Below are positions 1,297 to 15,536 of a DNA stretch of 64,000 nucleotides, one piece after another. The stretch is from Flavobacteriaceae bacterium. GTDB taxonomy: Bacteria; Bacteroidota; Bacteroidia; Flavobacteriales; Flavobacteriaceae. Where the stretch lies: assembly GCA_029238515.1 (NCBI GenBank), contig JAQWFW010000020.1, forward strand, positions 1 to 64,000, written 5' to 3'. Made by a program: the position numbers and the translations under genes. Each line of letters begins with the position of its first letter. Within the stretch, counting starts at the first letter, position 1. Under the pieces are notes generated by a model, which was given only the letters and a program-made list of their open reading frames with translations, was not told the origin of the DNA and did not search any database.

Positions 1297-2234
1297 TGCC
1301 ATTTTTTTCAGTTGTCATACCGCTTTATAACAAAGAAAACTACATTCAAAATACCATTGAAAGTGCTCTAAATCAAACCTTTACAGATTTTGAAATTATT
1401 GTCGTTAATGATGGGTCAACGGATGAGGGTTTAAAGGTTGCAGAGCAAATAGAAGACTCTCGAATTAAAATATTTTCAACAATTAATGGGGGGGTTTCTA
1501 GGGCAAGAAATTATGGAGTTGAAAAAGCACAATCGGATTATATTGTGTTTTTGGATGCTGATGATTATTGGTATACACAACATCTAGAAAAATTAAATGT
1601 ATTAACGTCTACTTTTCCAAATCATAGTTGGTTTGCTTCGGCTTATGAAAAAAGATATAGTTCAAATTTAATTAAATCTATAAACTCACCTATTTTAAAT
1701 AAAGGGAAGGAATGGTTTGGCGAAGTTTCTGATTTTTTTATGCACAGTTTCATAGACTGCCTTACTTCTTCTTCTTCGGTTGCGATGAAAAAAGAATTTT
1801 TTATTTCGCTAGAAGGTTTCGATACTAAAATTTCTCATGGCGAAGATACTGACCTTTGGGTTAGAGCTGGTCTCAAAGAAAACTTGATTTTTTCTAATAA
1901 AGTCACTGTCCAATATAACTTAACGAGTAATAATCGTTCCTCAATAATTAATATAAGGGATCGTAAAAACCTAAATTTCAATAAGTTTTCCAAAGAAGAA
2001 AAAAACAATAAATATTTAAAAAAATATCTAGACCTCAATAGGTACTCATTGGCTTTGCAATATAAAATGGCAAAAAGCAACAAAATGTATAATGATTTGT
2101 GTGAAACTATAGATTTTGGAAATCTGAACAACAAACAACTTTTCTTATTAAAAACACCTACATTTTTATTAATCTCATTACTTAAAATTAAAAACAGTCT
2201 TGAATACCTTGGAGTTAAACTAAGCGCCTTTTAG
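1296..2234 (+). CDS. Family 2 glycosyltransferase
   Basis: A 312-residue GT2 enzyme starting FFSVVIPLYNKENYI, with VVNDGSTD and FLDADDYW as the nucleotide and DxD motifs in the first 110 residues. HGEDTDLW about halfway matches the ED motif of the catalytic base region. The ATG at 1296 overlaps the previous stop by one base, so the longer in-frame start at 1275 is unlikely. It forms a two-gene unit with the upstream glycosyltransferase. Its 3' end runs 15 bases into the convergent ketoisomerase gene. It probably extends the repeat unit of a surface glycan. Confidence 0.87.
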   Translation: MPFFSVVIPLYNKENYIQNTIESALNQTFTDFEIIVVNDGSTDEGLKVAEQIEDSRIKIFSTINGGVSRARNYGVEKAQSDYIVFLDADDYWYTQHLEKLNVLTSTFPNHSWFASAYEKRYSSNLIKSINSPILNKGKEWFGEVSDFFMHSFIDCLTSSSSVAMKKEFFISLEGFDTKISHGEDTDLWVRAGLKENLIFSNKVTVQYNLTSNNRSSIINIRDRKNLNFNKFSKEEKNNKYLKKYLDLNRYSLALQYKMAKSNKMYNDLCETIDFGNLNNKQLFLLKTPTFLLISLLKIKNSLEYLGVKLSAF

Positions 2235-2639
2235 AGTTTTAAATTCATTATATTCTCTAATATAATCATCTTCTGAAAACTCTCCTGAAGATAGCACTAA
2301 ACAAACTGCTCCAGATGAAAAATCTTCTAATTCACGCCATATCCAAGTTGGTACCAATAAACCCTTGTTTGGATTATTTAAAAAAAAATTTTTTTTTGAA
2401 AAACCATCGTCTAAAATCACATTAAAGCTACCGCTTAATGCAACCAAGAATGCCGATTGCTCTTTGTGAGCATGTCCGCCACGGTAAGAATTACTTGGGA
2501 CATCAAATAGATAATATACCCTTTTAATTTTATAAGGAATCGTTTCCTTTTCAATGATGGCTAGATTCCCTCTTACGTCTGTTATTGTTGGAATTTCTAT
2601 TAAATTAATATCATCTAAAGTTATGGTTTTGTTATTCAT
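2220..2639 (-). CDS. fdtA: FdtA/QdtA-like dTDP-4-keto-6-deoxyhexose 3,4-ketoisomerase
   Basis: A 139-residue single-domain cupin of normal family length. It has the DVRGNL, KRVYY and RGGHAHK (53-59) motifs of sugar 3,4-ketoisomerases. The histidines of the HAH segment are the expected active-site residues. These enzymes convert dTDP-4-keto-6-deoxyglucose to the 3-keto isomer, the substrate for a 3-aminotransferase. The matching aminotransferase (5920-7023) is 3.3 kb away on the same strand, separated by an oppositely oriented glycosyltransferase gene. The ATG overlaps the upstream glycosyltransferase stop (ATGA). Fuc3N-type and Qui3N-type products cannot be told apart from sequence. Confidence 0.82.
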   Translation of the reverse strand: MNNKTITLDDINLIEIPTITDVRGNLAIIEKETIPYKIKRVYYLFDVPSNSYRGGHAHKEQSAFLVALSGSFNVILDDGFSKKNFFLNNPNKGLLVPTWIWRELEDFSSGAVCLVLSSGEFSEDDYIREYNEFKTLKGA

Positions 2640-3451
2640 TTCATATATGATTTATAATTATGAATTCCTTTGAATCCAATTTTAATTTTACTTGTAACTT
2701 CTTCTAATGAAATATAATTTTTTCTTAACAAGAAAAATACAAATTTTAATACTAAAAAATACGCTAGGTTATTATATTTGTAAGAATTTATTGCTCCTGT
2801 TGCGTATAAAATTCGTTCGCTTGCTACTTTATCGCTTGACGAAAAGGGTTTGTGTAGAGAAATTGACTTATTAACAAACCACATTTTTAGTTGTTTTTTT
2901 TTGGCTTCTGTAAGGAAAATATAATTTTCCCCATCTTCAAAATTAGCACCTAGTCCAAATCGTTCATCATATATTAATTCATCTAAAAAATCTTTTTTTA
3001 AAGTCATTTCAACTGATAGAGTTTGGCGAAACATATACTCATTTAACTGTCTAGATGATTTTGGATACTTCCAGTAAAGTTTATTTTCTGTAGTCGTTGT
3101 TTGAAATGTGATTATAGGTTGTTTATTATTTTGATGAGCTTCAATAATAATTTTTTCGAATCCCTCTAAAAAAATTACATCGTCATCAGCGATTAAACAT
3201 ATTGGCTTTATTGCATTTTTAAGCGCTAGATTCCTGCTTTTGGAGAGTCCTTTTTCAAAAGAGTTTATAACTCGTATTGTGCTATGGTCAGAGATTAGTA
3301 GTTTGTTCTCTGTTGTCTGATTTATTATTAAAATACTAAAATCTAAAAAATTACACTTCGAAAACATCTTTTTTAAAAAATCTAAAGATGTTCTGTTCAT
3401 TGTTGAAATTAAAATCTCTAATTCTGTATTTTTATCTTTAACTTTAGTCAT
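2636..3451 (-). CDS. Glycosyltransferase, GT2-like
   Basis: A 271-residue protein with a GT-A-like N-terminus (ELEILISTMNRTSLDFL), a KGLSKSRNLAL segment and an IADDDVIF acidic motif typical of the donor-binding site. FGLGANFEDGENYIFL in the second half resembles the acceptor-side ED motif of GT2 enzymes from Bacteroidota polysaccharide loci. It overlaps the downstream ketoisomerase by four bases (ATGA), so the two are almost certainly co-translated. It is divergent from the GT4 gene at 3488 across a 36-base gap. Substrate unknown. Confidence 0.72.
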   Translation of the reverse strand: MTKVKDKNTELEILISTMNRTSLDFLKKMFSKCNFLDFSILIINQTTENKLLISDHSTIRVINSFEKGLSKSRNLALKNAIKPICLIADDDVIFLEGFEKIIIEAHQNNKQPIITFQTTTTENKLYWKYPKSSRQLNEYMFRQTLSVEMTLKKDFLDELIYDERFGLGANFEDGENYIFLTEAKKKQLKMWFVNKSISLHKPFSSSDKVASERILYATGAINSYKYNNLAYFLVLKFVFFLLRKNYISLEEVTSKIKIGFKGIHNYKSYMK

Positions 3452-3487
3452 TCAAATTCGATATTACAACAAATGTATAAAATATAG

Positions 3488-4636
3488 ATGAGGATTTTAC
3501 TAATTGGTGAATACAGTAGACTTCACAATTCTTTAAAAAAAGGATTATCGGAACTTGGCCATGAGGTTTTACTTGTTGGTACAGGTGATTTGTTTAAACA
3601 TTATCCTGTAGATATATCAATAAAACCTAAATTTTTATCAAATAAGCCATTTCCTCACTTTATAAGAAAACTATTTTTTAGATTAATAAAAAAAGACCTT
3701 GCGCATTGGGAAATAGGATATCGTTTCGAAAAATTACTGCCTCAATTAAAAGACTACGATGTAGTTCAACTGATCAATTCGCATAGTATAGGAGCTTTTC
3801 CAAAAAAAGAAAAAAAATTATTAAAAGTACTTTTTGCCCAAAATAAAAATATTTTTTTGATGGCTTGCGGCGATGACTATCCCGTAATTAAGCACTACTT
3901 AGAGGGTAATGAACGTTATAATATTCTAACTCCTTATTTGGAAAGCAAAGGGAAAAATTATGCTGATTTTTCATTAAAATATATATCCCCTAAATTTAAA
4001 TCCTTATTTGATTTTGTATATCAACATGCAAAAGCTGTTATTCCAAGTGACATTGACTATAAGCTTCCATGGGCAAATTGGAAAAAAATTATGCCTGTAA
4101 TTCCTAATCCCGTTTTAATTCCTCAAATATACAGTCCTATAAATTGCATGAACAGAAAAGTGATTGTTTTCCTAGGTATCAATACGCTTAATTATTCAAA
4201 AAAAGGATATAAATATTTTGAAAAAGCATTAGAAAAATTACAAAAAAATTATGCAAATAAAGTAGAAATTAGACTGACGAAAAACTTGCCATTTGATGAG
4301 TATATAATACATTTAGAATCCTGTGATATCCTTTTGGATGCCATTTTTTATTACGATCAAGGTTACAATGCCTTGGAAGCAATGGCAAGAGGAAAAGTTG
4401 TATTTACAGGAGCTGAAATTGAATTTATGGAACACTACAATTTGAAGCACCGGGTGTGCATTAATGCTTTACCTGATACTGATCAAATTTATTCAGAGCT
4501 AGAAAATTTAATTTTAAATCCTGAAAAAATAAATAAGATTGGTGAAAAAGCGCGCGAATTTATCGAAAAAGAACACCATCACAAAACAGTTGCAAGTAAA
4601 TATATTCAGGTTTGGAGAGATTATGTAGTAATTTGA
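3488..4636 (+). CDS. Family 4-type (GT-B fold) glycosyltransferase
   Basis: A 382-residue protein with the Rossmann N-terminus MRILLIGEYSRLHNSL and GHEVLLVGTG of GT-B glycosyltransferases. In the C-terminal half it has YDQGYNALEAMARGKVVFTG, where the E of NALEAMA is the usual nucleotide-sugar contact of GT4 enzymes. It is a lone plus-strand gene between minus-strand genes. It ends immediately before the stop codon of the convergent flippase gene, with no base between them. It probably adds one sugar of the surface glycan. Confidence 0.78.
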   Translation: MRILLIGEYSRLHNSLKKGLSELGHEVLLVGTGDLFKHYPVDISIKPKFLSNKPFPHFIRKLFFRLIKKDLAHWEIGYRFEKLLPQLKDYDVVQLINSHSIGAFPKKEKKLLKVLFAQNKNIFLMACGDDYPVIKHYLEGNERYNILTPYLESKGKNYADFSLKYISPKFKSLFDFVYQHAKAVIPSDIDYKLPWANWKKIMPVIPNPVLIPQIYSPINCMNRKVIVFLGINTLNYSKKGYKYFEKALEKLQKNYANKVEIRLTKNLPFDEYIIHLESCDILLDAIFYYDQGYNALEAMARGKVVFTGAEIEFMEHYNLKHRVCINALPDTDQIYSELENLILNPEKINKIGEKAREFIEKEHHHKTVASKYIQVWRDYVVI

Positions 4637-5923
4637 TTAGTTATTTTGATTTTCAAATCTAAAATATCGAAATACTAAAAAGACGACAACTAGTAAATAA
4701 ATTATATATCGAAATAAATGCCCCATCACAACACCTTCAACACCATAGATACCGCTCAAATAGTTTGCAAAAACATAAAATAGAACAAGCGATAGAATTT
4801 CAGTGAAAATAAAATTTCTTGCTAATTTTTTAGCAAAAAATTGATGCGCTAAAACTATTGAAATTAATTTAATAAAATCTGCTGTTAATTGCCATTTGAA
4901 TAGTGGTTTCATTCCTTTATAATCCAAAAAAATATAATCGATAAACAATTGACGGCCTAGAAATATAACAAACATGCCGGCTGCGAATAGAGGCAATAAC
5001 GTTTTGTATATATTAACTACTTCTGTTACAAAATCTTTTTTGCTGTAGATTCCTGAAAATTTCGGAATCACATATAGCGTAAAGATAGCACCAGAAAAAA
5101 CCATATAATTACTTGATAATGTTGTCATAGCTGTCCAGACGTCAGCGTCATTAGCACCAATTTTATCTTCTATCATTATGCGAATATCTGCCTCTACAAA
5201 GTTTAATAGTATTGTAGAAATAAATGACATCAATGAAAATGCAAGCAAACTTTTGAATAGAGACGTTCTAAATTGAATTTTTGAAAACTGAACATATTCC
5301 TTCAATACCTTCACAAAAACAAACATCATTACAATAACTTGAATGATTGGAATACTTGCTATGGCTAATAATACTCCTGATAAATTGAATTGATACAAAA
5401 ACCAAATGATTAGGGTTGAAGAAATTATATAGCTTACTAATTCGATTTTTGCAAAATATTTATACTCCGATAAACCATTAATCACACCATTAAAAACACG
5501 CTGAATTGCTATAAATGGAGCTATGACTGCTATTACTTTTACGATGTAACTATAGTCTGATGAGAAAAAAAAATAAGTACTAATTGCTTCTGAAAAAAAA
5601 TAGAGAATGACAAATGTCATTATGCTACCTATAACTGTAAAAACAAATGCGGTTGAAAATAATTTTTGTAGATACTGTTTATTTTCTTTGTATTCAGCCA
5701 CATATTTAACTATGCCATTAAAAATTCCTAATGATGTGAATGATGATAAGATTTGCATTAAGTTGCGAAGCGATCCAACTTTGGCATATCCCCCACTCAC
5801 AAGGTTTTGTGTAAGTTCTCTTTGAATAAAGAAACCTATAAAAAGTCTCACGAAAATAACTCCAGCATTTAATGAAGTTATTTTTAATAATAAATTTTCT
5901 CTTATAAATTTTGGAAGCTTCAA
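4637..5923 (-). CDS. Wzx/MATE-type polysaccharide flippase (O-antigen translocase)
   Basis: A 428-residue, very hydrophobic protein with about 12 predicted membrane helices. Its N-terminal pattern ([20 protein letters not shown]) is typical of WzxE-like O-antigen translocases, which flip lipid-linked repeat units to the periplasmic side. The start is a TTG at 5923 overlapping the aminotransferase stop (TTGA); no in-frame ATG occurs early enough, so a non-ATG start with translational coupling is likely. Operon order GNAT, aminotransferase, flippase supports export of an amino-sugar glycan. It lacks features that would separate Wzx from other MOP-superfamily exporters. Confidence 0.82.
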
Positions 5924-7023
5924 TGATATGAATTTAAAACTGATATGATAAAGTTAACATCTTTTTCTGAAAGTACTGGGCTAATAGGAATACTTACTAG
6001 CTGTTTTTGGATTTTCTCTGTAACTGGAAAATGTAAATCTGAATATTCCAAAAGAGCCTTTTGTTGATGGGGTGCAATTGGATAGTGAATTAAAGTTCCT
6101 ATTTCATGTGCTTCAAAATGAGTTAAAAACTTATCTCTATCCTCGACACGAATTACAAAAAGATGAAAAACATGATCATTCTTATATCTAAATGAAGGTA
6201 ATTTAATGTGTTTATTATTAACATACTTCAAATATTTTTTTGCAATCTCTATCCTCATTAGATTGTCTTGATCAAGAGAAGGTAGTTTTTTCCTTAATAT
6301 TGCTGCTTGCAATTCATCCAAACGGGAATTTATACCAACATACTCATTCACGTATTTAGAAGATGTTCCATAGTTTCTTAGCTTTTTAATTACATCTGCG
6401 AGTTGCTCATTGTTTGTGGTTACTGCTCCTGCATCTCCTAGTGCTCCAAGATTTTTTGAAGGATAGAAACTAAACCCTGCTGCATCTGCTAATGCGCCAG
6501 CTTTTGTGCCATTTTCATTTGTAGCGCCATGAGCTTGTGCTGCATCTTCAATTACCAATAAGTTTTTCGACTTTGCTAACGCTAAAATTTTACTCATTGG
6601 AGAGAGCTGACCATACAAATGTACAGGCAAAATTGCCTTTGTTTTTTCTGATATTAAAGACGCTAATTCTTCTAAATTAAAATTATGAGTTACCGATTCT
6701 GATTCTACAAGTTTTGGAACTAAACCAACCTGTTTGATAGCGAGTATTGTTGCGATATAAGTATTTGAAGCAACTAAAACCTCATCTCCTTTTTTTAGGT
6801 GACCTAAAATAATATAACCCTCTAAAATTAAACGCAAAGCATCCAATCCATTCCCTACACCTACACAATGAGAAACCCCACAATAAGATGCAAATTCTTC
6901 TTCAAAGGCCTTTACATGAGATCCTAAAATATAATAGCCAGAATCTAAAAATGAATTAAAGACAGATTTAAACTCATTTTCAAAACGTTTATTGATTTTT
7001 GAAAGATCTAAAAACGGTATCAT
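5920..7023 (-). CDS. fdtB: DegT/DnrJ/EryC1 sugar aminotransferase, FdtB-like
   Basis: A 367-residue PLP enzyme of the DegT/DnrJ/EryC1 family. [10 protein letters not shown] (with D160) and [19 protein letters not shown] with the Schiff-base lysine K190 are clear. This family transaminates 3- or 4-keto-6-deoxy nucleotide sugars. The FdtA-like isomerase in the same locus points to the 3-keto sugar and thus a dTDP-3-amino-3,6-dideoxyhexose. The GNAT gene upstream overlaps it by four bases, and the flippase downstream overlaps by four, so the three form one unit. A role in 4-amino sugar synthesis is the main alternative. Confidence 0.83.
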
Positions 7024-7958
7024 AAAAACAAATCATTTAGTAGCACATGATTTTTTGTGCTAATTTCATAAAATTCATGCACAATACTTCGCGCACCAAA
7101 ACTTTCTTTCCAAGATAACAAGCCCTGATTTACATGACGACCTTGATTTTCTGTTGAAATACCAAAATCAAAATATTTTTTGTGTTTATATTTTTCATTT
7201 ATTAAATAATTAAACAAAACGTCCAAACCACCTTGTTGTTGACGATCTTTATTTGCCGAAATATATTGTACATGCGCTACTGTGTCTGTTTCAAAAATAG
7301 TGGCACCGGCTACAATTTTATTTTCATGAAAAACACTATACTGTTTAATATGATTTGGAAATTTATTTCTGAGCTTACTAATTTCCGAAACTGTATGTAC
7401 CGGCAAAACATTATGACTCTCTTTTAGGTTTGGAATCAATATCTCGTTCCAAAAAGCAGATAAGTCAGTCTCTTCCTTTATGGTTAAATTATTCTTAATT
7501 CCTTTTTTAATTCCCCTCTTTCGATTTGAAGAATCAATTTGTAGCTGATGTGAATATTCAATTACAGAAGAAATATCTTTCCGCACCAAAGATGCTTCTG
7601 TCTTGAACAACAAATAAGAAATCTCATCGCTTGGTAGTTTAGTATAAATCTCAGGTAATAATTTTAAATGAAGTTTATAAATATTATATTGCTCTAAATA
7701 TTTTAAAAGTGAATAATAAATATAAAAAATATCATCAAATTTCGTTTTAGAACTTAAAAGAACTCCACCGTAGCTCAAGCCTTGATGAGAATATATTTCA
7801 TCTCCAACACGATTTGCAGGCAATAAACCCACAAGGAGCTCATCCTTGAAAAATAGCAACGAATGATCCTGAAATCTGTCTTTATGATATTCTAAAAAAT
7901 CTCTTTTAAAAAGAAAAGTAGCGTTTTTGGAACCGTCTATAAAACGATTCCAAATCAT
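7020..7958 (-). CDS. FemAB/GNAT-fold acyl- or aminoacyltransferase
   Basis: A 312-residue protein resembling the FemAB-like GNAT proteins of Bacteroidota sugar loci. It begins with a [20 protein letters not shown] segment, then HQGLSYGG, and ends with the [22 protein letters not shown] pattern seen in double-GNAT FemAB relatives. It overlaps fdtB by four bases. Because no FdtC-type hexapeptide acetyltransferase is present in the window, this protein is a candidate to N-acylate the 3-amino sugar. That assignment is inference; FemAB relatives can also transfer amino acids to other acceptors. Confidence 0.7.
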
Positions 7959-8054
7959 TTGGTCTTCTACTTTATATTTTTTTACTTTATAAATAATCTA
8001 ATGTTTAAAAACCATTCTAAAATAAAATATATGGCGATAGTACTAAATAAATGG

Positions 8055-9533
8055 TTATTTTTCAATAAATACAAATTCTCCTTTATCATTTACAACTTGA
8101 TATACTGAATTATAAAAGTAATTCTTTATATGAATATTGTAGCTTGAATCATCTTCCATATTGTCAAGGTACTGCTTATTTTCACTTAACACTGAAAATA
8201 ATACACGAAATAGGTTTACATTTGATACTAAGTCTGTATCGTATCCTTTGGGATCTACACCATTCCATTTAATTGCAGCAAGTGTAGAAAAAATTGATTC
8301 AATTTTTGCTTGATCCTGAGTTTGAAACATTTCATTGTAATTTACCATACCTACCCAACCTCCATGATCGGCTAAAACAATAATAATAGCTTCATTGTCT
8401 ACTTCTGAAATATATGAAATAGTTTCTTTTAGCCAAACATTCACCTCTTCTATTTTTTGAATATATAACTTACGTTCAGTTTCTACTCTGTCATCTGGGG
8501 CTGAAAAACGCACATGATGAGGCATCAACTTTTCGATAAAATAAAAATTAGAAAAAGAATTTTTATTAATTACATCCAACAGATCTTCAAAAACTACTTT
8601 TTTGATTTTATTTCCATCTGTAAACAATGGGATTTCCTCGTTTATAATATTTGAATAATCATATTTCATTTCAGAATAGTTCTGTTGAAAATAATCATCT
8701 TGAACAATAAAATGGGTTTTATAATTATTGTTTGTTAAAATTGTATTTACGGGATTATCTCCACAAATTATTTCTCTTGCATTGGGCATTTCTATGGATG
8801 GAAATATCGTTTTCCCAAATAAGTGTTGCTTCATCAAAAACATTGAAGAATTTGATGTTAAACTCGCAGGATAATTACTCCTAAAGCGATCATATATCGT
8901 AAACTCATTTTTTCGCAACCAACCATATAAATCACTTTCGTGTTGATATATATTACTTTTCATCATACTTTGAGCAACATATCCATCGGGTTGTATCAAA
9001 TAAATATTAGGTGTTTTTTTTAGTTTTGTATTTAAAATTTCAAAATCATTAAAATTATATCGTCCATTGACTATACTTTCTATTAAATGGTTAGAGACTT
9101 TAAAAATTGGTATTATGGTCATTAAAATAATTAGGACTACAATTTTTTTATATTCTCTAAAAAGTTTTAAGGATAACAAAAAACTAATTATTAATATACA
9201 TAGTAATATTTTTTTTTTAATGACGAGAAACATTACATACGTTAATAGTACAGCAGTACAAAAGATCAAAGAAACGAACAATACATGCTTTTTGCATTTC
9301 AAAAACTTTGGATTGAATTCAAAAAATATTTGTAAGAGAACAAAATAAAGTATTGGGATTCCCAAAAATAAACTTCCAATGGAAGTAAGGTGATTCAAGG
9401 AGTTTATTGCAAAAAAATTGTTGGAAAAGTAAAACACTAAAGGAAAAAAGCCACAAATAAAACCTAAAAAAAAAGGATTATCAGAGTCATTTTCATAATA
9501 GCCATCAAGCATTCCCTTTAATGTCTTTAGCAT
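8055..9533 (-). CDS. Membrane protein with sulfatase/alkaline-phosphatase-fold domain
   Basis: A 492-residue protein with about five N-terminal membrane helices (residues about 20-160), then an extracytoplasmic alkaline-phosphatase-superfamily domain. PNIYLIQPDGY carries the first metal-binding Asp and VLADHGGW carries the Asp-His metal ligands. The nucleophile region (YPASLTSNSSM) has Ser/Thr and no CxPxR, so it is not a formylglycine sulfatase. It is more like LtaS/EptA-type transferases that move phosphoglycerol or phosphoethanolamine. It lies four bases after the methyltransferase gene, in a cassette next to the polysaccharide locus, so modification of a surface glycan or lipid is plausible. 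Confidence 0.72.
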   Translation of the reverse strand: MLKTLKGMLDGYYENDSDNPFFLGFICGFFPLVFYFSNNFFAINSLNHLTSIGSLFLGIPILYFVLLQIFFEFNPKFLKCKKHVLFVSLIFCTAVLLTYVMFLVIKKKILLCILIISFLLSLKLFREYKKIVVLIILMTIIPIFKVSNHLIESIVNGRYNFNDFEILNTKLKKTPNIYLIQPDGYVAQSMMKSNIYQHESDLYGWLRKNEFTIYDRFRSNYPASLTSNSSMFLMKQHLFGKTIFPSIEMPNAREIICGDNPVNTILTNNNYKTHFIVQDDYFQQNYSEMKYDYSNIINEEIPLFTDGNKIKKVVFEDLLDVINKNSFSNFYFIEKLMPHHVRFSAPDDRVETERKLYIQKIEEVNVWLKETISYISEVDNEAIIIVLADHGGWVGMVNYNEMFQTQDQAKIESIFSTLAAIKWNGVDPKGYDTDLVSNVNLFRVLFSVLSENKQYLDNMEDDSSYNIHIKNYFYNSVYQVVNDKGEFVFIEK

Positions 9534-9536
9534 ACC

Positions 9537-10919
9537 TTATTTTTTCTTATAAAGATACATAATTCGGTGTGTACCTTCAATTTTTACCTTATGGACTAAA
9601 ATAAAATAAATCCCAAATTTAGCTTCAAAATTATCTTGATCATAAAAATCAAAATGATTTATAAACTCTCGCTTTCTAATCAATAAAGACTTAACCCATG
9701 AGTCTTCTCTTTTTGGAAATTCAATAATCAAATTTTTAGAAAAAGAGGCAAAAAATGCTGCAGACTTTTCAAAAGGAACATTACCAGACAATGTTAAATG
9801 GTGGATAAGCGCCAAGGCAAGAGTCACATCAGGCGAAAAATTAATTAATCTTTTAATTAACGACTCTCGCTCTGTATTACAAAAACCTATTCCTGCAGGA
9901 GGTTGCAAGATATCGCAAACAAAAGGAAGTAAATTTACTTCGTCATTTTCCCTAACCTTATTATAACACAAGTCGATTGCATTGCTGTCAATATCTGTGA
10001 CTAAAATATTTGCAACATCTTTAATGACTGTTCTTGCAAAAGTTCCATCATTTCCACCTATATCTATTAAAGAATTTGTTTTCAATTGCAATACCCAATC
10101 TTTGACTAACTTTTTCTTGTTTAAAAAAGCCTTTGAATTGTAATTGGTTTTGGAATAATAATCACCCCATTCTGATCGATTATTTTGTTTTAATTTTGAA
10201 ATATAGTCATATAAACTAGTTAAGATATTTTCGTGTGCTTTTTTTGATAAATTTCCTGATTTAGCCTCGTTTTTATAATCATCACTATACTTGCGTTCCA
10301 TCTTTGCTAGAAGATGAATATTTGGATAAAGTATTGAATTAAGTCGAGTTTTTGAAGGCAACAAAGATGATATTAATTGTATCGGTAATCCATCAATATG
10401 GGTTTGCATCATTTTAAGCATTTCAGCACCATGATACTTTGCCAAAACCAAAGGCCCTAGGAAATGTGTGATAAATTGTTTGTAAGCCCTCCAAGGTGTA
10501 TCTTCCCTATAAAAATCAAAAGACAATGTATCAATAAAAGTAGGTTTTCCCATATGAAATGTTACATTGTATGCAGACGCATCTTTCAAAATAAACCCTT
10601 TGGATAGTGCATAGTTTTGAATTTTTAAAGTTAAAAGTGCGGCCTGTTTATATTGCTCGAAACTCCACTCGTAGGGGTTGGTCACAAAAGGAATCTTTTC
10701 TGGAGTGATAATGATTTCTTCATCTGAAATTGAAGTTTCTGTGTGGGGAATTAATAGTTTTTTTTGGATTAAACTATCAAAGAAACCTCTTTCTTTTAAT
10801 GCTGCATATTGAGGAAAATAAATTGGTTGTATTGATCTACGTAAAACAGCTTGATCGTAAAACAAATAGCCCGATGGATCCCTAAAGGAAGCCTCATGAG
10901 TATTCTTTTTAATCATCAT
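9537..10919 (-). CDS. NoeA-like SAM-dependent methyltransferase
   Basis: A 461-residue protein: an N-terminal half with FRDPSGYLFY and KDASAYNVTF segments known from NoeA-like nodulation and polysaccharide proteins, and a C-terminal class I methyltransferase domain with SLIDIGGNDGTFA as the SAM-binding glycine loop. ATGs at 10940, 10919 and 10916 and a TTG at 10943 are possible starts. I choose 10919 because it keeps the overlap with the upstream small gene to 11 bases. The N-terminal DASAYN segment resembles a kinase-like phosphate-binding region, but function is unproven. It probably methylates a sugar or lipid carrier in surface-glycan synthesis. Confidence 0.72.
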   Translation of the reverse strand: MMIKKNTHEASFRDPSGYLFYDQAVLRRSIQPIYFPQYAALKERGFFDSLIQKKLLIPHTETSISDEEIIITPEKIPFVTNPYEWSFEQYKQAALLTLKIQNYALSKGFILKDASAYNVTFHMGKPTFIDTLSFDFYREDTPWRAYKQFITHFLGPLVLAKYHGAEMLKMMQTHIDGLPIQLISSLLPSKTRLNSILYPNIHLLAKMERKYSDDYKNEAKSGNLSKKAHENILTSLYDYISKLKQNNRSEWGDYYSKTNYNSKAFLNKKKLVKDWVLQLKTNSLIDIGGNDGTFARTVIKDVANILVTDIDSNAIDLCYNKVRENDEVNLLPFVCDILQPPAGIGFCNTERESLIKRLINFSPDVTLALALIHHLTLSGNVPFEKSAAFFASFSKNLIIEFPKREDSWVKSLLIRKREFINHFDFYDQDNFEAKFGIYFILVHKVKIEGTHRIMYLYKKK

Positions 10920-11103
10920 TTGATGCACTATTGTTGTCATCAATATCTATTGAATCAGTCTTATTCTCTTTATCTATTATACCAAAAATTATCTTTAACT
11001 TGTAAACTATATTTTTAGTAAAAAGCAAAACACCTGCCACAGCTGCAACTATAGCTTGTACAATCATTGCGCCCAAGCCTGGATCAAAATATAAAAATTG
11101 CAT
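10909..11103 (-). CDS. Small DPGxG membrane protein
   Basis: A 64-residue protein starting MQFLYFDPGLGAM, then one membrane helix (about residues 13-30), a short basic stretch and an acidic tail rich in Asp, Asn and Ser. The DPGxG N-terminus followed by a single helix is recognisable in small proteins found beside sulfatase-fold and NoeA-like methyltransferase genes. It overlaps the methyltransferase gene and so is likely co-translated with it. Its role is unknown; a membrane anchor or assembly factor for the other two products is possible. Confidence 0.62.
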   Translation of the reverse strand: MQFLYFDPGLGAMIVQAIVAAVAGVLLFTKNIVYKLKIIFGIIDKENKTDSIDIDDNNSASNDD

Positions 11104-11146
11104 AATAATTTATGGTAATATTGTTAAAAATTTGATTTATTGCAAT

Positions 11147-11380
11147 TTACTGATTTTTCTTCAAAAACAGGTAATAGATATTAATCCCAAAAATTGCGGC
11201 ATTGGAAATAATAATAGGCCATGCATTGGAAAGCAAAACTCCATATGCGACAAACAACAAACAGGCAACAGAATTAACCATTCTAAGCGCACGCAGATGT
11301 GGCATAGCAAAGGAAATAAGCAGTACCACAGTTGCGGCATAGCCAATCCATTCGGCAGTAGAAATCCCTGAAAAATCCAT
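11147..11380 (-). CDS. YgjV-family small inner membrane protein
   Basis: A 77-residue protein with three hydrophobic segments. The pattern EWIGYAATVVLLISFAMP, then LRMVNSVACLLFVAYG and a final helix resembles the bacterial inner membrane protein YgjV family. Function is unknown. The ATG at 11380 is one base from the typA stop, so it is probably transcribed with typA as a downstream gene. Length is at the short end of the family, which is usual in Flavobacteriaceae. Confidence 0.68.
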   Translation of the reverse strand: MDFSGISTAEWIGYAATVVLLISFAMPHLRALRMVNSVACLLFVAYGVLLSNAWPIIISNAAIFGINIYYLFLKKNQ

Positions 11381-11381
11381 T

Positions 11382-13181
11382 TTATAGTGCTTTATTTCGC
11401 TTTCGATCTACTTCTTTAAGGAAGATTTTTCGTAGTCTAAGACTATTTGGAGTAACTTCTACATACTCATCCTTTTGAATGTATTCTAAAGCTTCTTCTA
11501 ATGAAAACTTAATAGCAGGAACAATTTTTGCTTTGTCATCGGCTCCAGAACTACGAACATTACTCAATTTTTTTGTTTTGGTAACATTCACGACCATGTC
11601 ATCGCCACGAGAATTTTCTCCAATAACTTGACCTTCATAAATCGATTCACCGGGGTCTACAAAGAATTTTCCACGATCTTGAAGTTTATCAATAGAATAA
11701 GGAATTGCTGAACCGTTTTCCATAGAAACTAAAGAACCATTTTGACGCTCAGGAATACCCCCTTTCAAAGGTTGATATTCTTTAAATCGATGTGCCATAA
11801 TGGCCTCTCCAGCAGTGGCTGTAAGCAATTGATTCCGCAAACCAATGATTCCTCTTGAAGGTATAATAAATTGGCAAACCATACGCTGACCTTTGACTTC
11901 CATGCTCAAAAGCTCTCCTTTACGCATCGTAACCATTTCTACGGCTTTGCCCGATATGCTTTCCGGTAAATCAATAGTCATTTCTTCAACAGGTTCACAT
12001 TTGACCCCATCAATTTCTTTTAAAATGACTTGTGGCTGACCAATTTGAAGTTCGTATCCTTCTCTACGCATGGTTTCGATAAGGACTGATAAGTGTAGTA
12101 CACCACGGCCAAAAACCATGAATTTGTCGGCACTATCCGTTGCTTCTACACGGAGTGCTAAATTCTTTTCTAACTCTTTTTCTAAACGCTCTTTCAAATG
12201 GCGTGAAGTCACAAATTTTCCCTCTTTACCAAAAAATGGAGAATCATTTATGGTAAAAAGCATACTCATAGTGGGTTCGTCTATTGCAATAGTTTCTAAA
12301 GCTTCAGGGGCTTCAATATCGGCGATGGTATCGCCAATCTCAAATCCATCTAACCCAACAAGTGCACAAATTTCTCCTGCATTTATTTTTTCGACTTTCT
12401 TTCTGCCCAATCCTTCAAAAACATGAAGTTCTTTAATTTTTGATTTTATGGTTGAACCATCTCTTTTAATCAATGCAACAGCTTGATTTGTTTCGAGTGT
12501 TCCACGTTGCAAACGACCAATGGCTATTCGTCCTGTAAAAGATGAATAATCCAAAGAAGTAATCAACATCTGCGTATTGCCTTCATCAAATTTTGGCGAT
12601 GGAATATGATCGATAACCATATCCAACAATGGCGCAATTGAGTCTGTTTTGTCATTCCAATCATCACTCATCCAATTGAATTTTGCTGAACCGTAAACTG
12701 TTGGAAAATCCAACTGCCACTCTTCAGCTTCAAGCTCAAACATAAGGTCAAATACCGCCTCATGCACTTCATCAGGAGTGCAATTTTCTTTATCAACTTT
12801 GTTGACAACAACACAAGGTTTTAGACCCAAACTGATGGCTTTTTGTAATACAAATCGTGTTTGAGGCATCGGCCCTTCAAATGCATCTACAAGCAACAAA
12901 ACACCATCGGCCATATTAAGTACGCGCTCTACTTCTCCACCAAAATCGGCGTGACCAGGGGTATCGATAATGTTAATTTTGGTGTCTTTGTATACTACCG
13001 AAACGTTTTTGGAGGTTATTGTAATGCCTCGCTCACGCTCCAAATCGTTGTTGTCTAAAATCAAATCCCCTTTGTTTTCGTTTTCACGAAACAATTGACA
13101 GTGGTATAAAATTTTGTCAACTAAAGTTGTTTTCCCATGATCGACATGAGCAATGATGGCAATATTTTTAATTGTGTTCAT
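11382..13181 (-). CDS. typA: Translational GTPase TypA/BipA
   Basis: A 599-residue ribosome-binding GTPase that aids 50S assembly and translation under stress. G1 is AHVDHGKTT (11-19), the switch region follows at RGITITSK (51-58), G3 is DTPGH (73-77) and G4 is NKVD (127-130). The EF-G-like domains II, III and V and the TypA-specific C-terminal domain are present, and length matches the family. A TACCTTTG element on the minus strand at 13204-13211 would place transcription start about 16 bases before the ATG. It is divergent from kdsA. Confidence 0.97.
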   Translation of the reverse strand: MNTIKNIAIIAHVDHGKTTLVDKILYHCQLFRENENKGDLILDNNDLERERGITITSKNVSVVYKDTKINIIDTPGHADFGGEVERVLNMADGVLLLVDAFEGPMPQTRFVLQKAISLGLKPCVVVNKVDKENCTPDEVHEAVFDLMFELEAEEWQLDFPTVYGSAKFNWMSDDWNDKTDSIAPLLDMVIDHIPSPKFDEGNTQMLITSLDYSSFTGRIAIGRLQRGTLETNQAVALIKRDGSTIKSKIKELHVFEGLGRKKVEKINAGEICALVGLDGFEIGDTIADIEAPEALETIAIDEPTMSMLFTINDSPFFGKEGKFVTSRHLKERLEKELEKNLALRVEATDSADKFMVFGRGVLHLSVLIETMRREGYELQIGQPQVILKEIDGVKCEPVEEMTIDLPESISGKAVEMVTMRKGELLSMEVKGQRMVCQFIIPSRGIIGLRNQLLTATAGEAIMAHRFKEYQPLKGGIPERQNGSLVSMENGSAIPYSIDKLQDRGKFFVDPGESIYEGQVIGENSRGDDMVVNVTKTKKLSNVRSSGADDKAKIVPAIKFSLEEALEYIQKDEYVEVTPNSLRLRKIFLKEVDRKRNKAL

Positions 13182-13297: not shown

Positions 13298-14116
13298 ATG
13301 GAACTTCATAATATTCCAAAGTTAAAACATACCGATTCTAATCAATTTTTCTTGCTAGCTGGCCCTTGTGCTATTGAAGGAGAAACAATGGCTCTACGTA
13401 TTGCGGAACGCGTTTGCGAACTCACAGACAAACTTAAAATTCCATATATTTTCAAGGGAAGTTTTAAAAAAGCAAACCGTAGCAGAATCGATAGTTTTAC
13501 AGGAATTGGTGACGAAAAAGCACTAAAAATTCTACGTAAAGTTTCCGAAACTTTTGATATACCAACTGTTACAGACATTCACGAAGTTAGCGACGCTACA
13601 ATGGCTGCTGCTTATGTAGATGTACTACAGATTCCCGCATTTCTTGTACGGCAAACCGATCTTGTTGTTGCCGCCGCAAAAACTGCTAAGGTTGTAAACC
13701 TAAAGAAAGGGCAATTCATGAGTCCAGAAGCTATGAAACACGCTGTTCAAAAAGTAAAAGACGCTGGTAACGAAAAGGTTTGGATTACTGATCGTGGGAC
13801 AATGTTTGGCTATCAGGACATGATTGTAGATTTTAGAGGAATACCTACCATGCGCCAATTTGCACCAACCGTTTTGGATGTGACCCATTCACTACAACAA
13901 CCAAATCAAACAAGTGGCGTCACAGGTGGTCGCCCAGAAATGATTGAGACAATTGCCAGAGCTGGTGTAGTCAATAATATTGATGGTTTATTTATAGAAA
14001 CCCATTTCGATCCTGCTAATGCCAAAAGTGATGGTGCTAATATGCTGGATTTGAATCATTTAGAAAAACTTTTGACCAATCTAGCAGCCATTAGAACTAC
14101 GGTAAAAAAACTATAA
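13298..14116 (+). CDS. kdsA: 3-deoxy-8-phosphooctulonate (KDO-8-P) synthase
   Basis: A 272-residue TIM-barrel enzyme that condenses arabinose-5-phosphate with PEP to give KDO-8-P for the lipopolysaccharide core. Motifs include LLAGPCAIEGE, FKGSFKKANRSR, the VWITDRGTMFGY segment and GVTGGRPEMI, all typical of KdsA. The frame opens with a TTG at 13295 directly before the ATG at 13298; the ATG is the better start. With lpxB and the polysaccharide locus it shows a KDO-containing outer membrane. It stands alone, divergent from typA and convergent with the M28 peptidase. Confidence 0.96.
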   Translation: MELHNIPKLKHTDSNQFFLLAGPCAIEGETMALRIAERVCELTDKLKIPYIFKGSFKKANRSRIDSFTGIGDEKALKILRKVSETFDIPTVTDIHEVSDATMAAAYVDVLQIPAFLVRQTDLVVAAAKTAKVVNLKKGQFMSPEAMKHAVQKVKDAGNEKVWITDRGTMFGYQDMIVDFRGIPTMRQFAPTVLDVTHSLQQPNQTSGVTGGRPEMIETIARAGVVNNIDGLFIETHFDPANAKSDGANMLDLNHLEKLLTNLAAIRTTVKKL

Positions 14117-14132
14117 ATAAACTAGTATTAAG

Positions 14133-15536
14133 CTAATCTTTGATTTTACTTTGATGCTGAATATCGTTGAAACCGTATTTATCAATAAGATAAATAAGCG
14201 ATGTCATTGTTGCTGCACCCAATTCTAACTCACGTTTGTTTACGGCATCAAAAGTGTCGTTCGCAGCATGATGATGATCAAAATAGCGCTGAGAATCTGG
14301 GCGTAACCCAGCCAAAACAAGATTATCATTTTTTAGTGGACCGATATCAGCACCGCTTCCTCCTTTTTTGAAATAATGAATAAGATAGGGTTCAAAAAGT
14401 GGTTTCCAATTTAAAATTTGATTGATCTTATAATCCGGACCATCAAAAGAAAAACCTCTTGGCGTAAAACCACCAGAATCACTTTCTAAAGCAAAAATGT
14501 GTTTTTCTCCTTTCTTCTTGGCAACCTCAGCATACTTTCGGCCACCGCGAAGTCCATTTTCTTCATTCATAAAAAGCACTACACGTATGGTTCGCTTTGG
14601 ACGAACTCCAGTTTCCTTCAACAGACGTAATACATCCATCGATTGTACACAACCTGCGCCATCGTCGTGGGAACCATCGCCTAAATCCCAAGAATCCAAA
14701 TGTCCACCAACAATAATGATTTCGTTGGGGTATTGACTACCTGTAATTTCGCCAATGACGTTGTAGGACTGAACATCTTTCAGTTGTTTGCAATTTTGCT
14801 TGAAATAAAATTTTATTTTTGGTTCAATTTTTAAAATACCGCTTAAGCGTTCGGCATCATTGGTACTGATGGCTGCGGAGGGAATTCTTTCGTGTACAGG
14901 AGTGTTGCCATAGGACATGGCACCAGTGTGTGGCAAATCGTCTAGACGTAGATTCATGGAGCGTACAATGGTACCCACAGCACCCAATTTGGCAGCTTCT
15001 TTTGCACCATCGTATCGCTGATCGACACATCCACCATAGGCCTCAAAAGTTGAAATCAAATCGGCTTGCATAGGTCTATTGAAAAATACAATTTTGCCTT
15101 CAACATCAGCGCGATTCTTGGTGTTCAGATCCTCAATTCCTTGTACTTCTATGAGTTCGGCCTTTAGTCCTTGCAACGGGGTGGAAACAGACCCCCCTAA
15201 GGCACAAAGATTGACAGGGATTGTTTTACCCGGTTCAGTTTCTATATACGCAAATTCGGGGTTGCCACGCACCCATTTTGGCACCATTACGAGTTGGAGC
15301 CAAACTTTATCTAAACCTAACTGTTCCAACTCATTTTTGGTGTATTCTACAGCCAATTCTGCATTGAGTGATCCCGATAGACGACCTCCTATTTCATTAG
15401 ATAGATACCTTAGCCACTCATAGCTTTTACCATTGGTTAGTGAAGTACTGTATATGTTTTTTATTTGTGCGGTATCATCTTGAGCATGAACAAAAAAAGT
15501 TAATGATAAAAAGATAATGACGATTTTACTGTTCAT
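14133..15536 (-). CDS. Secreted M28-family metallopeptidase (carboxypeptidase Q-like)
   Basis: A 467-residue protein with a signal peptide (cleavage likely after HA at 17-18). A PA-type insert lies at about 110-250, and an M28 zinc peptidase domain follows. GGHLDSWD gives H279, HDDGAG gives D291, and NEENGLRGG gives the catalytic E325 and the metal-binding E326. A late HHHAANDTFD segment provides the last His ligand. It should release N-terminal or C-terminal residues from peptides in the periplasm or outside. It lies 17 bases after the sigma-54 regulator stop on the same strand, so it may share that transcript. Confidence 0.88.
   Translation of the reverse strand: MNSKIVIIFLSLTFFVHAQDDTAQIKNIYSTSLTNGKSYEWLRYLSNEIGGRLSGSLNAELAVEYTKNELEQLGLDKVWLQLVMVPKWVRGNPEFAYIETEPGKTIPVNLCALGGSVSTPLQGLKAELIEVQGIEDLNTKNRADVEGKIVFFNRPMQADLISTFEAYGGCVDQRYDGAKEAAKLGAVGTIVRSMNLRLDDLPHTGAMSYGNTPVHERIPSAAISTNDAERLSGILKIEPKIKFYFKQNCKQLKDVQSYNVIGEITGSQYPNEIIIVGGHLDSWDLGDGSHDDGAGCVQSMDVLRLLKETGVRPKRTIRVVLFMNEENGLRGGRKYAEVAKKKGEKHIFALESDSGGFTPRGFSFDGPDYKINQILNWKPLFEPYLIHYFKKGGSGADIGPLKNDNLVLAGLRPDSQRYFDHHHAANDTFDAVNKRELELGAATMTSLIYLIDKYGFNDIQHQSKIKD

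Follow-up and report, generated by a model that had tools for sequence, protein, structure and literature searches.

An FdtA, aminotransferase and FemAB-type gene set in a Flavobacteriaceae bacterium: a candidate pathway to an N-aminoacylated 3-amino-3,6-dideoxyhexose that may link type IX cargo

The window analyzed here comprises bases 1–64,000 of a 104-kb contig (JAQWFW010000020.1) from a Flavobacteriaceae bacterium whose genome (GCA_029238515.1) is 1.7 Mb in size and 91% complete. It starts at base 1 of the contig, thus nothing is readable past its left end. The window contains three minus strand open reading frames that are predicted to participate in the formation of a dTDP-3-amino sugar: an FdtA/QdtA-type dTDP-4-keto-6-deoxyglucose 3,4-ketoisomerase (positions 2220–2639; PF05523, 171 bits), an FdtB/QdtB-type sugar aminotransferase of the DegT family (5920–7023; PF01041, 319 bits) and a FemAB-type double-GNAT protein (7020–7958), here termed FemAB. 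All three are found where an earlier note on this DNA had put them, and the family matches bear out its report of an FdtA-like isomerase and an FdtB-like aminotransferase. Its description of the gene set as split is also right: a Wzx-type flippase and two glycosyltransferases part the aminotransferase from FdtA.

FdtA is present in a single copy in the genome. Its HAH pair, which is changed in the PDB variants 2pae and 2pak, is preserved. The best PDB score is with 2pa7, the FdtA of Aneurinibacillus thermoaerophilus (E = 3e-30), a match that is no proof of the stereochemistry of the 4-epimer (Fuc3N versus Qui3N). The aminotransferase matches PDB entries 7n63 and 5u1z at 371–374 bits, QdtB (3frk) at 334 bits and WbpE at 209 bits. 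With 7n63, 5u1z and QdtB as its nearest structures it appears to be of the FdtB/QdtB type, and its substrate is predicted accordingly.

The Wzx-type flippase is at positions 4637–5923 on the minus strand (PF01943, 47 bits; WzxE model 166 bits, below its cut-off). It is followed toward FdtA by a group 1-like glycosyltransferase on the plus strand (3488–4636; PF13524/PF00534, 27–28 bits), which is conserved at the locus of relatives, and by a family 2-like glycosyltransferase on the minus strand (2636–3451; PF00535, 24 bits, barely above the cut-off), which overlaps FdtA by 4 nt. Overlaps of 4 nt are also found between FemAB and the aminotransferase (7020–7023) and between the aminotransferase and Wzx (5920–5923). 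In the enterobacterial common antigen genes of E. coli (wecD-wecE-wzxE), as in FemAB-aminotransferase-Wzx, a GNAT acyltransferase is followed by a sugar aminotransferase and then by a WzxE-like flippase. WecD has a single GNAT domain, uses acetyl-CoA and acts on a 4-amino sugar, and the enterobacterial common antigen locus has no FdtA.

The FdtABC and QdtABC pathways, which lead to dTDP-Fuc3NAc and dTDP-Qui3NAc, share the ketoisomerase and 3-aminotransferase families with this locus. They also have a hexapeptide acetyltransferase, whereas this locus has none and a FemAB-type protein is in that slot. No FdtC-like hexapeptide acyltransferase was found in the locus or in the genome, which is 91% complete and in which the contig ends at the left edge of the window; the absence of FdtC claimed in the earlier note is thus upheld within the readable genome. 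An FdtC encoded elsewhere in the genome was considered and rejected. There are 13 hexapeptide matches at three sites, and these are DapD (C13), an alternative GlmU (C16) and a cluster on C36; the first two are typed by family match and the third, Lpx-like in look only, is untyped. In L052, the nearest relative to share the cassette, a crude motif scan over 19 kb shows nothing hexapeptide-like.

A set of 149 relatives, including the genome itself, was compared. FemAB matches at E ≤ 0.001 are present in 47, and two of these (G029 and G059, E ~1e-4) were dropped, leaving 45. FdtA was counted only at E < 1e-30 and weaker matches were dropped. By this measure FdtA is present in 43 of the 45 FemAB-positive relatives but in only 9 of the 104 that are FemAB-negative, and it is inside the fetched stretch in 37 of 41 FemAB loci (the window included). 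Of the 41 loci examined, 39 have both genes, and in 38 of these the reading frame of the aminotransferase, counted from stop codon to stop codon, begins no later than the FemAB stop. The translational coupling of FemAB to fdtB that had been proposed is consistent with this and with the 4-nt overlap. The closest named FemAB match is from an uncultured Flavobacteriaceae bacterium (90% identical).

Nine clusters have FdtA without FemAB. In five of these (L231, L234–L237) FdtA and the aminotransferase directly flank a hexapeptide acyltransferase, and because of this FemAB is considered to hold the N-acyltransferase slot. The remaining four (L112, L232, L233 and L238) have no hexapeptide acyltransferase in that slot. 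In L233, which is from another family, FdtA is separated from the aminotransferase by two genes, for a protein resembling AMP-binding ligases and for a short-chain dehydrogenase (positions 5886–7866); this pair is possibly another route to an N-acyl group. From gene content and position, FemAB is predicted to belong to the FdtA pathway and not to be a stray neighbor.

FemAB has no Pfam match. It matches TIGR03019 (the pepcterm_femAB equivalog) at 44 bits, where the cut-off is 260, and relatives score 22–57 bits. Nine of ten FemAB-type proteins tested, as well as the window FemAB, match this model below the cut-off. Formal membership in TIGR03019 is rejected, the score being far too low. A profile of 42 proteins that are 31–90% identical to the window FemAB was run against 177,635 PDB sequences. 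Only Sbb17 (E = 1.6e-7) and Sba18 (E = 6.4e-6) are significant, and the one other row is a ribosomal protein (E = 1.2). The PDB records describe both as aminoacyl-tRNA-dependent peptide synthases solved with streptothrisamine, and the compound on which they act is an amino-sugar one. The sequence alignment spans only the C-terminal third of FemAB. Lys284 of FemAB is invariant in all 42 proteins and is aligned with a lysine of Sbb17 and Sba18. According to the available text of a review (PMC12945691), FemX has no reactive residue close to its substrate other than Lys305, the BD-12 enzyme Orf11 converts streptothrisamine using Gly-tRNA, and the classical FemABX enzymes modify peptidoglycan precursors. 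Lys284 may correspond to Lys305 of FemX; the residue-level comparison covered the lysine of Sbb17 and Sba18.

An AlphaFold model of FemAB, made with 7 sequences, has a predicted local distance difference test score (pLDDT) of 71 and a predicted template modeling score of 0.76. The model aligns over residues 27–303 and predicts two GNAT domains in the FemX arrangement. It is closest to Sba18 and Sbb17 (Z 18.0–18.4, root-mean-square deviation (rmsd) 5.0–5.6; for Sba18, Z 18.4 and rmsd 5.0 over 236 residues), followed by FemX and FemA (Z 17.0–17.5; for FemX, Z 17.5 and rmsd 6.3 over 250 residues) and by MprF/A-PGS (Z 13–15). The records of all these proteins describe them as transferring amino acids or as aminoacylating lipids. 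Tandem GNATs that use acetyl-CoA score on a par with MprF/A-PGS (VipF, Z 14.1, rmsd 9.2). FemX, Orf11 and Sbb17/Sba18 resemble FemAB in the double GNAT fold and, as aligned for Sbb17/Sba18, in a lysine in the same C-terminal motif. They differ in that their acceptors are peptidoglycan or an antibiotic, and the likeness to FemABX-type transferases is in all cases below clear family membership, with the C-terminal third alone aligning by sequence. An acyl "or even aminoacyl" group had been suggested for the sugar; the profile and the modeled fold favor aminoacyl transfer, which is unproved but better supported than the acyl option.

From computed gene content, homology, synteny, co-occurrence and predicted fold we infer a pathway, including its acyl donor, amino acid, acceptor and link to PorU. 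RmlA and RmlB would supply dTDP-4-keto-6-deoxyglucose, FdtA would shift the keto group to C3 and the aminotransferase would install an amine there. FemAB would then move an amino acid from aminoacyl-tRNA onto the C3 amine, replacing the acetyl group set by FdtC, and the glycosyltransferases and Wzx would assemble and then export the glycan. The amino acid would give the surface glycan a free primary alpha-amine. The likeliest use of this amine would be in a reaction of the PorU sortase, in which it would be the nucleophile that becomes joined to the freshly formed C-terminus of type IX cargo. A pathway to an N-aminoacyl-3-amino-3,6-dideoxyhexose, with or without an anchoring role, appears quite likely. 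That this product, in its likeliest role, also links type IX cargo seems, for the statement taken as a whole, somewhat more probable than not.

The genome encodes a PorU (1343 bits, cut-off 420) and has 18 matches to the TIGR04183 C-terminal domain. Strong PorU is present in 110 of the 149 relatives, i.e. 109 above the cut-off and G025, where it is split over contigs and falls below the cut-off; matches in G041, G056, G066 and G091 were dropped as weak. FemAB is found in 45 of the 110 PorU-positive relatives and in none of the other 39. At the level of the class a comparison of FemAB with PorU lacks power, since almost every genome there has PorU (379 of 395).

In the part of the literature available on P. 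gingivalis and T. forsythia, the linking sugars are seryl or glycyl amino-uronic sugars, and VimA, which matches TIGR03019, decides between serine and glycine (PMC7468200). The Wbp/Vim pathway as given there and this locus both have a TIGR03019-matching protein beside amino sugar genes in a genome with type IX secretion, and in this locus the amino acid on the sugar is predicted. The pathways differ in that the Wbp/Vim sugar is a 2,3-diamino uronic acid, and that of the present locus would be a 6-deoxy sugar formed by the FdtA route. No WbpA, WbpB, WbpD, WbpE or VimE turned up in the search for them, which was confined to those proteins of the locus that were scanned by family. The likeness to VimA consists in a common TIGR03019 match. 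Distant FemAB-like proteins (family f37) are present in other glycan clusters of PorU-positive Bacteroidia (L146–L148, e.g. L147, positions 7590–8621), and that of L147 matches TIGR03019 and a FemX model, both below cut-off. These clusters are possible further linker pathways. A literature search that covered few subscription papers turned up no paper joining FdtA or FemAB to type IX linkers and no description of flavobacterial linkers.

A linker of the predicted class has been described in Prevotella intermedia, where the linking sugar is an N-alanyl deoxyhexose, partly methylated and linked to an N-acetylhexosamine (PMC11969387). In the available text of this 2025 paper the position of the nitrogen and the biosynthesis are reported as unknown, and WbpB, WbpD, VimA and VimE as absent. 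The authors state there that a pathway transferring alanine to a deoxyhexose is unknown to their knowledge, and they consider it possible that the phylum has several routes to a linker (PMC11969387). A tblastn search of plasmid records shows that Prevotella sp. oral taxon 299 has a FemAB that is 40% identical to that of the window, in the gene order RmlB-like, ATP-grasp protein, FdtA, FemAB, DegT. FemAB is present in 353 of 398 Prevotella genomes (161 of 175 of high quality). Of twenty Prevotella stretches sampled, 17 have FdtA and 19 have an RmlB-like gene; the aminotransferase is present in 16, and FdtA, FemAB and the aminotransferase are all together in 16. The ATP-grasp gene, which is PurK-like (L095, positions 10272–11432), is within the RmlB-FdtA-FemAB-DegT operon in many of the Prevotella stretches but not within that of genome G623.

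In G623, RmlB (TIGR01181, 446 bits, above the cut-off), FdtA, FemAB and DegT are in a row. A hand count of the printed alignment between a C10 protease domain of this genome and interpain A gives 197 identities in 201 positions. Interpain A is an enzyme of P. intermedia, and because of this match G623 is considered to be P. intermedia or a sister species. RmlB-FdtA-FemAB-DegT is a direct candidate pathway for the P. intermedia linker and would predict that the nitrogen is at C3. The linker is of the same class as the product predicted for the present locus, and the operon is located in the genome matched to P. intermedia. The two cases are complementary: the published linker is a known sugar that lacked genes, and here, including G623, which is not the published strain, it is the genes that are known and the sugar that is predicted.

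The FdtA co-occurrence, the exchange with hexapeptide acyltransferases and, in Prevotella, the placement of FemAB next to RmlB, FdtA and the aminotransferase all support the earlier proposal that FemAB acts in place of FdtC. The anchoring of type IX cargo is a probable purpose that is added here.

Other genes of the locus extend on both sides of the cassette. Two glycosyltransferases border it on the plus strand (376–1296 and 1275–2234; PF00535, 67 and 115 bits), and these are kept at most loci, FemAB-positive or FemAB-negative alike. On the minus strand are a conserved cassette protein of ~490 aa without Pfam or NCBIfam match (8055–9533) and a methyltransferase-like cassette protein (9537–10943), the latter assigned by synteny and a weak PF08242 match below the cut-off. 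Several relatives have between one and three copies of the ~490 aa protein, arranged in tandem next to FemAB (L054, positions 4467–8917; L069, positions 5017–9563).

The cassette is located beside typA. The typA-side stretch was read in 18 PorU-positive, FemAB-negative genomes of the same family; 21 had been sought, but two have no typA match and in G010 the gene is at a contig end. In 15 of the 18 the stretch has Wzx, a protein of ~540 aa and glycosyltransferases. Pfam scans of five of the 15 ~540 aa proteins found a PF00884 domain in each; two of these five, those run against NCBIfam, match the phosphoethanolamine transferase CptA (E = 2e-85 and 4e-89, below the model cut-off), and the other ten are called CptA-like by similarity to the five. 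The CptA-like gene (L098–L111 and L113, e.g. L098, positions 13498–15141) thus takes the place of FemAB-aminotransferase-FdtA in 15 of 18 FemAB-negative loci; among 41 FemAB-positive loci a CptA-like gene is present in only one (L035). The exceptions are L112, which has FdtA and the aminotransferase but no FemAB, and L114 and L115, which have a more distant typA.

A typA tree was made from 44 of 59 offered loci with typA matches above 1000 bits; L114 and L115 (68% identical and located elsewhere) were dropped, and L112 is in the tree but left out of the two-label count. The FemAB and CptA labels need at least seven changes on this tree, although well-supported branches force only two. The closest typA relatives of the window, up to 97% identical, carry CptA. 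By DNA comparison with G006 and G007, the typA side is 84–85% identical and most of the cassette (~1.6–11.1 kb) displays no similarity; with G009, the cassette is 85.5% identical, closer than the typA-kdsA side at 79.7%. A sharp break in similarity is found beside typA at about positions 11110–11144 of the window, the left being G009-like and the typA side G006/G007-like, as after recombination. The comparison shows that the cassette is exchanged between relatives at the typA locus. Both modules would expose a primary amine. A tentative extension is that one Flavobacteriaceae glycan locus carries either of two interchangeable amine modules, FdtA-aminotransferase-FemAB or CptA-like, that either amine would be an acceptor for PorU, that the anchoring chemistry would therefore be swapped between close relatives by recombination, and that the FemAB module would also be the missing N-alanyl-deoxyhexose pathway of Prevotella.

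Several observations weigh against the assignment of FemAB as an aminoacyl transferase for a type IX linking sugar. The TIGR03019 score is low and the confidence of the fold model is middling. The search for RmlB, which covered the 104-kb contig, found none. The Fisher p of 8e-8 for FemAB with PorU takes no account of phylogeny, and 21 of 64 PorU-positive genomes of the same family (~1/3) lack FemAB. FemAB is present without PorU in G505 and with only a weak PorU match in G292, and the alphaproteobacteria Devosia and Ruegeria have FemAB with the aminotransferase, and in Ruegeria also FdtA. Because Devosia, Ruegeria and G505 carry FemAB, the link between the cassette and type IX secretion is not a fixed one, and a strict role of FemAB in that system alone is rejected. 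The alphaproteobacterial cassettes are on megaplasmids and are outside the bacteria that have type IX secretion (L096, positions 8061–11249, Devosia, with a translocase; L097, positions 7953–11424, Ruegeria, with FdtA).

The cassettes in G505 and outside Bacteroidota would also fit an aminoacyl sugar that is an ordinary component of O-antigen or another surface glycan and has no anchoring role, as would the presence of Wzx and several glycosyltransferases, the exchange of the cassette in the manner of O-antigen loci and the N-acetylalanyl Qui3N known, from the available part of PMC3210612, in O-antigens of other phyla. This alternative is considered rather doubtful, given the restriction of FemAB to PorU-positive relatives, the linker chemistry already known in P. 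intermedia (PMC11969387, available text) and the near-universal FemAB of Prevotella, which suits a core role over a variable antigen. It is unlikely that FemAB is instead an acyl-CoA-dependent N-acyltransferase, i.e. an FdtC analogue of another fold that would acetylate or otherwise acylate the sugar: the proteins that match it best by profile and by fold are aminoacyl-tRNA enzymes, VimA, which is in the same broad family, determines serine or glycine (PMC7468200, in part), and the P. intermedia sugar bears alanine (PMC11969387, in part), even though GNAT folds are mostly acyl-CoA users, tandem acetyl-CoA GNATs such as VipF align as well and the slot is that of an acyltransferase. A role of FemAB on another target, peptidoglycan or another sugar, with its place beside the aminotransferase a chance of operon history, is highly improbable. 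Classical FemABX enzymes do act on peptidoglycan precursors (PMC12945691, available text), FdtA and FemAB are not adjacent in the window, and 3 of 20 Prevotella stretches have FemAB with no FdtA nearby; nevertheless the co-occurrence of FemAB with FdtA is near perfect, most of the Prevotella stretches have all three genes together, and hexapeptide acyltransferases substitute between FdtA and the aminotransferase elsewhere.

The cassette is a concrete four-gene candidate for a pathway that transfers alanine to a deoxyhexose, and the gene set may supply the missing pathway for the linker seen in the gum bacterium P. intermedia. If the aminoacyl-linker assignment is true, VimA-like chemistry would extend to 6-deoxy sugars and to flavobacteria. 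The exchange of FemAB with a phosphoethanolamine transferase suggests that the sortase may in general require a primary amine that is exposed.

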